This document shows, one piece after another, positions 32,261 through 53,743 of a stretch of DNA of 64,000 nt. The stretch spans positions 44,840-108,839 of the forward strand of contig NZ_JARUQS010000003.1 in assembly GCF_029767755.1 (NCBI RefSeq), given 5' to 3'. The notes under the pieces are model-generated. The model was not told the DNA's origin. It worked only from the letters and a program-made list of their open reading frames with translations, and searched no databases. Source of the stretch: Thiomicrorhabdus sp. zzn3 (lineage in GTDB: Bacteria > Pseudomonadota > Gammaproteobacteria > Thiomicrospirales > Thiomicrospiraceae). Each line of letters begins with the position of its first letter. Position 1 is the stretch's first letter. The position numbers and the translations under genes are program-made.

Positions 32261-32361
32261 CCCCCTCTTTTTTCTTTACGCCTCCCTATCCTATAGGTTG
32301 TCCTTTTGCGCAAACCATTTGGCAAATACCAAAACCGCCGCTATACTAAGCGCCTTAATTC

Positions 32362-32450
32362 ACATTGTCGGAGTGCCTAGACGAGGCTGAGATCGCGAAA
32401 GCGGGATCCGTAGAACCTGATCTGGATAATACCAGCGAAGGGAACAATCA
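32362..32450 (+). ncRNA. TPP riboswitch (THI element)
   Basis: Conserved cores are present: GAGGCTGAGATC (near 32383-32394) and GAACCTGATCTGGATAATAC (32413-32432), with CCAGCGAAGGGAA following. The outer P1 stem pairs ATTGT (32364-32368) with ACAAT (32444-32448). It controls the thiC operon by binding thiamin pyrophosphate. Confidence 0.95.
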
Positions 32451-32562
32451 GAACTGTTGTGAATGGATACGTGCTTTTCTTATCTAGAGAAAGTACTGCA
32501 AAATGCAGAGACTGCTAAAACCGGGTTTACCTTTTTACGTTTTTCTTTGTCTCGCATCATTG

Positions 32563-35720: not shown

Positions 35721-35779
35721 TTAAGGATTAATTAGCCAAGGCCCGAAATTTTAGAAGTTTTATGTGCATATCCTTAAGG

Positions 35780-35798
35780 ACGCTTTAAAAGCGTTTTT
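35780..35798 (+). terminator. Possible terminator after thiO
   Basis: ACGCT-TTAAA-AGCGT followed by TTTT, 60 bases past thiO. It is a short stem, so it may be a weak attenuator within the thi operon rather than a full stop. Confidence 0.45.
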
Positions 35799-35813
35799 AA
35801 AATTTAAATTTTT

Positions 35814-35899
35814 TTCGGTTACTTTTTTGCGTGGCCAAAAAAGTAACCGAAAAAAGGCCACCCTGCTAAACGTTTTAGAGGGGCTTATTCCGAAATGCC
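35814..35899. repeat. Dispersed repeat, short copy (TTACTTTTTT hairpin element)
   Basis: Begins with a long hairpin (TTCGGTTACTTTTTT / AAAAAAGTAACCGAA), then GGCCACCCTGCTAAA, a small CTAAA-CG-TTTTAG hairpin and GGGGCTTATTCCGAAATGCC. The same blocks in the same order occur at 53552-53743. It separates thiO from thiS. Confidence 0.8.
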
Positions 35900-35947
35900 G
35901 TGCAAACTTGTAAAAGTGCTTCGTATCTGTCTAAGTTAGAAAACAAT

Positions 35948-53426: not shown

Positions 53427-53551
53427 AACAGGCTTCCAAATTCTAATACTGAGCTTAAGCCGTCAATACAAAATGATTAACGGACTGACACACTTATTTT
53501 AAAGGTCGCTCTTAATATTCTTTTTCATATTCAAAAACACATGTAGCGCCC

Positions 53552-53743
53552 TTGTTACTTTTTTGGTGGCCCAAAAAAGTAACCAAAAAAAGCCACCCTG
53601 CTAAAAGGTTCTATGACGCTAGGCTTGTGCGCTCAAGGTTGCGAACTTGCACGCAAACGTGCTTCGAACAACGCAGCCTTTTAAACGCGCCCTTCGCCAA
53701 CCGCCAGAACGAACCTTTTAGAAGGGGATTATTACGAAATACC
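53552..53743. repeat. Dispersed repeat, long copy (TTACTTTTTT hairpin element)
   Basis: Shares both ends with 35814-35899: the TTACTTTTTT/AAAAAAGTAA hairpin, CCACCCTGCTAAA, and TTTTAGA-GGGG-TTATT-CGAAAT. In between it carries about 105 extra bases with their own hairpins (AAAAGGTTC / GAACCTTTT and GCACG-CAAA-CGTGC). The remaining 120 bases toward rlmH show nothing notable. Confidence 0.8.

Follow-up and report, generated by a model that had tools for sequence, protein, structure and literature searches.

A dispersed bacterial repeat with a putative triplex-pseudoknot core

Telomerase RNA and SAM-II are H-type pseudoknots with a major-groove triple helix. Among dispersed DNA repeats, the intrastrand-triplex repeats known as BoxC, PIT or TM(ECO) are G/C-rich, number 23 copies in E. 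coli K-12 MG1655 and are always intergenic, according to the main text of Holder et al. (2015, PMC4666352); ITxF is a database of such repeats (same source). They are described there as folding in vitro, with no triplex in vivo by DMS footprinting and with mobility genes not found, so that the role of triplex DNA in living bacteria is open so far (PMC4666352). The TM(ECO)/BoxC consensus is given as CCCTCNCCC-N3-6-GGGNGAGGG-N3-GGGNGAGGG (PMC4666352).

The window analyzed here, a stretch of 64,000 nucleotides from Thiomicrorhabdus sp. zzn3 (contig NZ_JARUQS010000003.1, positions 44,840 to 108,839), carries two copies of one repeat family, a short one at 35814-35899 and a long one at 53552-53743. 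Both were found where an initial annotation of the sequence had placed them, with the motifs it had described as shared. The sequence CCACCCTGCTAAA matches exactly at 35858-35870 and 53593-53605; with up to two mismatches there are four matches in the window against 1.5 expected by chance, a number reached in 5 of 100 shuffles. For AAAAAAGTAACC with at most one mismatch, four matches were found against 0.5 by chance, all of them inside the two hairpins. Folded as single-stranded DNA, both copies were much more stable than their shuffles: the short copy (35812-35900) gave z values of -4.8 and -4.9 on the two strands and the long copy (53545-53736) gave -4.0 and -4.5.

On the strand read in the initial annotation, a full copy consists, in order, of an upstream hairpin (H0), a hairpin GTTACTTT...AAAGTAAC (H1), a purine tract that begins CCAAA, a short stretch, ACCC and a second hairpin (H2) with CCCT...AGGGG as its closing ends. 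It is probably the opposite, minus strand that carries the functional reading. The extra bases of the long copy, earlier put at about 105 with symmetric arms of their own, proved to be the interior of the long hairpin H2 (about 106 bases; arms 53596-53611 and 53711-53726, 94% complementary), the tip of which is a variant of the AACTCG...CTCAnACA type. The short copy is a repeat of the same type without this interior, only a stub of H2 being left, and deletion between the hairpin arms is the simplest origin for it. The long copy extends further upstream than the start earlier given for it, through H0. At the H0 place the copy on contig C1 of the same genome has GGACATT...AATGCCC, with the mismatch at the same position as in the long copy (by eye). 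Coordinates are collected in Table 1.

Table 1. Elements of the two window copies and the spacer that holds the short one
Feature	Position	Strand	Basis
Short copy, triplex stem hairpin GTTACTTTTTTG-CGTGGC-CAAAAAAGTAAC	35818-35847	-	sequence; perfect arms
Short copy, third-strand tract GAAAAAA (minus strand TTTTTTC)	35849-35855	-	sequence
Short copy, pseudoknot strand GTGGCC, in and beside hairpin loop	35831-35836	-	complement of 35856-35861; family test
Short copy, pseudoknot partner GGCCAC	35856-35861	-	sequence; family test
Short copy, second-hairpin stub CCCTGCTAAA-CG-TTTTAGAGGGG	35861-35883	-	comparison with long copy
Long copy, upstream hairpin H0, GGTCGCT...AGCGCCC	53504-53551	-	by eye; arms 53504-53510/53545-53551
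Long copy, triplex stem hairpin GTTACTTTTTTGG-TGGC-CCAAAAAAGTAAC	53554-53583	-	sequence
Long copy, third-strand tract AAAAAAA (minus strand T7), obeys triplet code	53585-53591	-	sequence; family tests
Long copy, pseudoknot strand GTGGC, in and beside loop	53566-53570	-	sequence; family test
Long copy, pseudoknot partner GCCAC	53592-53596	-	sequence; family test
Long copy, second hairpin H2 (rod), closed by CCCT...AGGGG	53596-53727	-	sequence, folding; covariation in 18 copies
thiO-thiS spacer bearing insertion, 227 bp	35721-35947	.	comparison of 17 genus loci

The purine tract behind H1 is a mirror image of the H1 3′ arm and follows that arm as it varies between copies. Mutual information between the third strand and the stem in register was 0.86, 0.68, 0.39, 0.44 and 0.51 bits at levels 4-8, each value above all 500 shuffles; shifting the register by one base cost almost nothing at level 7 (0.435 vs 0.444 bits). 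Treated as a direct repeat, the tract gave no more than 0.24 bits; this reading exceeded the shuffles at two positions and was nevertheless rejected. On the minus strand the correspondence reads T.AT, C.GC, G.TA and T.CG, with a pyrimidine third strand in parallel orientation, which is the set of the 1992 PNAS four-triplet paper, presumably that of Yoon et al. All four triplets stand in the title of that paper (reference 32 of PMC10609763), and G over T-A in the title of Griffin and Dervan 1989 (reference 31 of PMC10609763). A purine-motif triplex on the plus strand was rejected as well: it fits A and G and is not known to fit the C and A found at inversions.

Written for the plus strand, level 4 of the wider set had A facing T-A in 109 of 114 cases, G facing C-G in 48 of 49 and C facing A-T in 6 of 7, while G-C was faced by A in 9 of 15 and by G in 6 of 15. 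At level 2, C faced A-T in 6 of 6, and levels 1 and 2 together gave G over C-G in 3 of 3. Among 118 distinct combinations, 103 of 174 non-T-A cells obeyed the code; shuffles gave a mean of 59.8 and a maximum of 79 (2000 shuffles). In the window's own family all 13 non-T-A cells at levels 1-5 obeyed it (4 C-G, 7 A-T, 2 G-C), which, coming from related copies, stand for fewer than 13 events, copy counts overall not being counts of independent events. A was found at 158 of 167 T-A cells of this family, levels 6-7 being less clean. Exceptions to the code do occur. G-C took A only about half of the time (besides level 4, in 7 of 19 cases at level 5 and 10 of 29 at level 8), A-T took T at level 5 (2/2) and G or A, never C, at level 8 (4/4), and at level 7 no more than 5 of 16 C-G cells took G; overlap with the stem top and the pseudoknot occurs at the upper levels. 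Readings entered the triplet-code and pseudoknot counts if two or more of the first three third-strand bases were A, as in 185 of 214 for the wider code set; this filter removes wrong-strand readings of the palindrome and partly fixes the first three positions, and tests at level 4 and above are independent of it. Stem and third strand thus appear, from sequence comparison, to change together pair by pair, largely under a pyrimidine-motif triplex code.

The loop of H1 can pair with the bases that follow the third strand, over four or more contiguous positions in 130 of 196 distinct copies, against a mean of 33.7 and a maximum of 50 when the partners were shuffled, and over five or more in 68 of 196 (shuffle mean 8.9, maximum 19; 500 shuffles in each case); the other 66 copies have fewer than four. 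The 5′ hairpin GTTACTTT...AAAGTAAC is, on these counts, the core of a predicted H-type pseudoknot with a third strand. Covariation was also seen in H2, where 23 of 25 predicted pairs have two-sided changes among 18 family copies (24 of 31 with H1 included).

In the short copy, flanking TTTTTTCG/CGAAAAAA lengthen the stem arms to a perfect hairpin of 20 bp. Its third strand departs from the code at the first base, where G faces a T-A pair. Because this strand has an alternative pairing with the flanking T tract upstream (TTTTTTC, in TTTTTTCG), a triplex is doubtful here, and the short copy looks like a decayed one in which hairpin and pseudoknot could still form.

Mismatch counts and folding energies bear on whether the fold acts in DNA or in RNA. 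H2 has 12 G.T and 13 A.C mismatches in 450 cells of the window's family and 27 vs 34 over 171 copies. H1 has 1 vs 8, the direction expected of a minus-strand RNA, and H0 has 18 vs 6, the direction of the plus strand (flank control 30 vs 50); folding energy favours the minus strand for H2 and the plus strand for H0 and H1. Although these strand tests disagree, selection of the fold in DNA seems likelier than selection mainly in RNA, because H2 lacks an excess of G.U, and a selected RNA should favour G.U on one strand. That the fold acts as RNA, a minus-strand transcript forming a telomerase- or SAM-II-like triple-helix pseudoknot and spread as cargo, is unlikely in our estimate, although it deserves serious weight. 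RNA permits the pyrimidine and not the purine motif according to the main text of PMC4666352, the H1 mismatches favour minus-strand G.U 8 to 1, and for H2 the minus strand has the better folding energy, by 1.9 kcal (sem 0.64). Besides the balance in H2 on both strands, this reading has against it that copies show no more than a slight orientation bias with respect to the genes beside them (left 72 vs 48, right 43 vs 57), that no linked gene was seen among the 140 neighbouring proteins scanned, and that Rfam offers no match to them: at gathering scores the window has TPP at 32359-32460 only, and ten loci searched at E up to 5 gave seven matches, none overlapping a copy.

The description of the element as a dispersed non-coding repeat was borne out well beyond the window. 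Its genome carries four copies, C3:80655-80739 (short), C3:98379-98594 (long), C1:1257574-1257752 and C2:127309-127477, the last two lying outside the window and the C2 copy being one that obeys the triplet code. Relatives of the long copy were found by blastn in 15 of 95 related genomes and matches to an exact pattern in 20 of 95, the own genome included in both, with 39 matches in genome G015; the reversed pattern gave three matches in all. One of the twenty, G094, looks like chance. A species-wide search returned at least 119 stretches, and among the matches listed were Proteobacteria, Bacteroidota, Firmicutes, Fusobacteria and Saccharibacteria, which bears out the likeness to hairpins of other proteobacteria proposed in the initial annotation. 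In 15 of these loci chosen across phyla, at least four pseudoknot bases were present in 11, including Propionigenium, Saccharibacteria, Parabacteroides, Mucilaginibacter and Oscillospiraceae. Pseudoknot, third strand and reach across phyla are additions to the initial annotation.

A looser pattern matched in 25 of 27 genomes drawn from the species-wide matches, with 0-5 matches per genome for the reversed control (L151 left out). Counts were highest in G117 (222; an Oscillospiraceae bin of 1.9 Mb), G119 (151; a Selenomonadales bin), G118 (43) and G099 (38); all pattern counts are of matches rather than proven copies, and the window's own short copy matches on both strands. In G117 (L384-L403) many matches lie near contig ends, within larger composite repeats that blur their boundaries. 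At L034 (G011) a copy is apparently interrupted by another long inverted-repeat insert (TATACCCAAATTACTTGGAAGTGC...). Eight IMG/VR loci (L175, L179, L182, L183, L186, L195, L201, L209) were dropped as chance matches of one prophage family, because the motif in L201 reads as coding frame beneath a plasmid match with the annotation bamE, and L201 aligns with each of the other seven over the stretch that was compared. These eight are excluded from the G.T/A.C mismatch, orientation and ORF, wider triplet-code and pseudoknot counts and still included in the mutual-information and folding-energy sets.

Copies are mostly intergenic, 6 of 150 lying inside a long ORF. The 140 neighbouring proteins scanned, from 234 listed ORFs of which some are listed twice, fall into 124 Pfam families, none of them found in more than three proteins, and no linked gene was seen among them. 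The long copy had no match in plasmid or phage collections; eight plasmid records match a Xanthomonas copy over 45-49 bases and one record matches a Pseudomonas copy.

The short copy lies in the thi operon of the window. NCBIfam backs the names thiO, thiS, thiC, rlmH and rsfS. The thiG query had no NCBIfam match and is presumably thiG, judging by gene order. This gene is present in 30 of 32 genomes of the genus, with thiS directly upstream in 17 of the 30 loci. The gap between thiS and the ORF upstream, called thiO from its C-terminus in most of the 17 loci (a few tails are unrecognisable), is 227 bp here, 140 bp in the sister genome G020 and -20 to 55 bp in the other 15. Because of this difference from the 15 loci we regard the thiO-thiS copy as an insertion on sequence grounds, in accord with the initial view that it splits an otherwise tight operon. 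In G020 the long copy is likewise not at the same place, since its best relative there is some 580 bp away from rsfS and oriented the opposite way relative to it; from this and the thiO-thiS spacers it follows that copy positions are not conserved.

That the repeat serves the thi operon as a conserved cis-regulatory or terminator element is extremely improbable. This reading would account for the place of the short copy between thiO and thiS and for a terminator-like match on its minus strand (a second lies just upstream on the plus strand; two were found vs 0.5 expected), but the copy is missing from the same place in 16 other thiS-thiG loci, and copies elsewhere stand beside unrelated genes. 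We consider a conserved thi element refuted, while local effects on thiS expression are possible.

Other features were seen around these loci. A TPP riboswitch (Rfam RF00059, 78.8 bits) lies upstream of thiC. The thiO-thiS gap of G020 (L214) holds a different inverted repeat, TTCACCACAGAGGCACAGAG...CTCTGTGGTGAA, a sign that repeats land in this gap recurrently. Near thi loci and beside G015 copies there is also a recurring 12-bp palindrome, ACCAGGCCTGGT, in this or a closely similar form (G008, G014, G015, G030; e.g. L223, L228, L240, L232).

The suggestion that the repeat is a mobile element was supported for one lineage. Each of the 39 G015 copies is embedded in a unit, at least about 393 bp long, that is bounded by terminal repeats (TGTAAAA...), some of which are eroded. 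An initial scan showed exact target repeats of 6-9 bp at 13 of the 39 and none at 12; under stricter criteria 12 of 39 have exact 7-bp duplications (8 of the 15 whose ends are well kept), where mismatched ends as a control give 0.5 on average and 4 at most. G033 has an IS481-family element; its ends agree with the G015 terminal repeats at 20-21 of 27 positions, and each of the two copies read is flanked by a 7-bp duplication. On this evidence the core in the G015 lineage is cargo, travelling in an IS481-type MITE. In some G015 copies (e.g. L287, L303, L317, L321) another repeat end, TGTCCAACTT-TTGGGGTCACTTCA, replaces the usual left terminal repeat.

To extend this to the whole family, as a plain IS481-type MITE family with incidental internal structure, is improbable, the G015 copies and the G033 ends being its evidence. 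A pattern search for G015-type terminal repeats gave no match in the window's genome, G003, G014, G027, G011 or G020, so that for the window's genome the earlier suggestion did not find this kind of backing. In G119 (L364-L383) 20 aligned copies start sharply at GTTAC, always after T or C, and their flanks have nothing in common; the 13 checked showed no duplication exceeding 5 bases. Coordinated changes of stem, third strand and pseudoknot would moreover not be expected of incidental sequence. The 3′ end of the G119 copies lies near GGCCGGATTTACG.

Slightly less probable again is the view of the repeat as REP-type, with a Y1 (RAYT/IS200) transposase moving it. The repeat is palindromic, dispersed and mostly intergenic, and Y1_Tnp is present in 56 of the 95 related genomes; against this, Y1 transposase (PF01797) had no match in the window's genome, in G099 (38 pattern matches) or G103 (13), or in G117 and G119, both metagenome bins of which the completeness is not given.

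Taken jointly, the observations are probably best read as a dispersed, non-autonomous repeat with a triplex-pseudoknot core that folds in single-stranded DNA and is kept for a trans-acting factor. On the minus strand the core would run from a 5′ pseudoknot strand through a pyrimidine-rich third strand to the hairpin GGTTACTTT...AAAGTAAC, with the other pseudoknot strand in its loop. The third strand would sit in the major groove of the hairpin stem, reading it base by base, and beside this core, in the window's bacterial family, stand the long hairpin H2 and often the further hairpin H0. Rather than mainly in RNA, the fold may form in DNA that is single-stranded, in replication or under the force of supercoiling. 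The element itself is likely non-autonomous and probably selfish, and its fold may be kept because a putative trans-acting factor recognises it while the repeat is copied.

A co-change of stem and third strand under a known triplet code, inversions included, would be an evolutionary signal that the three-stranded form matters, and the code yields exact predictions for the bench in an element class with no Rfam match in the copies tested. We put forward only tentatively, as possible, the stronger proposal that a phylum-spanning family keeps the complete three-stranded code and the pseudoknot in DNA, the folded strand serving as the handle of an undescribed trans-acting copying system. If true, such a coded DNA fold across phyla would amount to proof, from evolution, of selection on triplex DNA in living bacteria.

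A HEARO/IscB or TnpB guide RNA was considered as an identity and rejected, with no Rfam match in the window or the ten loci and no linked gene. Open-licence literature, judged by title or the start of the abstract, held no account of the repeat sequence or of triplex-pseudoknot repeats. Among mobile elements, IS481-family MITEs resemble the G015 copies only (terminal repeats, and 7-bp duplications as in the G033 IS481 element), whereas the window's genome has no such ends and the G119 copies look different. REP/REPIN sequences with RAYT are similarly dispersed and palindromic; the present repeat differs in its ordered asymmetric anatomy and in the lack of a Y1 transposase match in several copy-bearing genomes. 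The likeness to H-type triple-helix pseudoknots is one of topology: on the minus strand the third strand would come between the two 5′ strands of the pseudoknot and occupy the second stem's major groove. Unlike the telomerase, SAM-II and SAM-V pseudoknots, the repeat is dispersed, its stem sequence varies freely, no linked gene was seen and there is no clear sign of selection at the RNA level.

The three tandem tracts able to form base triplets, stem of 6-15 nt and loops of 1-6 nt of an intrastrand triplex are all found here, the loops being 6 and 4 nt in the window (by eye) and longer in some copies outside it. The TM(ECO)/BoxC consensus does not describe the window copies, which are A/T-rich with GTTAC ends, and neither pseudoknot nor GTTAC occurs in the main text of PMC4666352; the search settings of that paper would probably have caught some members, unnamed. 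As in BoxC/PIT/TM, the copies are dispersed, have three tracts in a row (Y-R-R, or Y-Y-R when read on the opposite strand) and no linked genes, and small deletions leave hairpins. Features that set the present repeat apart from BoxC/PIT/TM are its A/T-rich composition, a covarying pseudoknot, the presence of H2 and often of H0, a four-letter code that is largely obeyed, inversions included, and carriage by a MITE in one lineage. The family is accordingly best placed as a variant of the intrastrand-triplex kind of repeat, with BoxC/PIT/TM as its closest described relatives.
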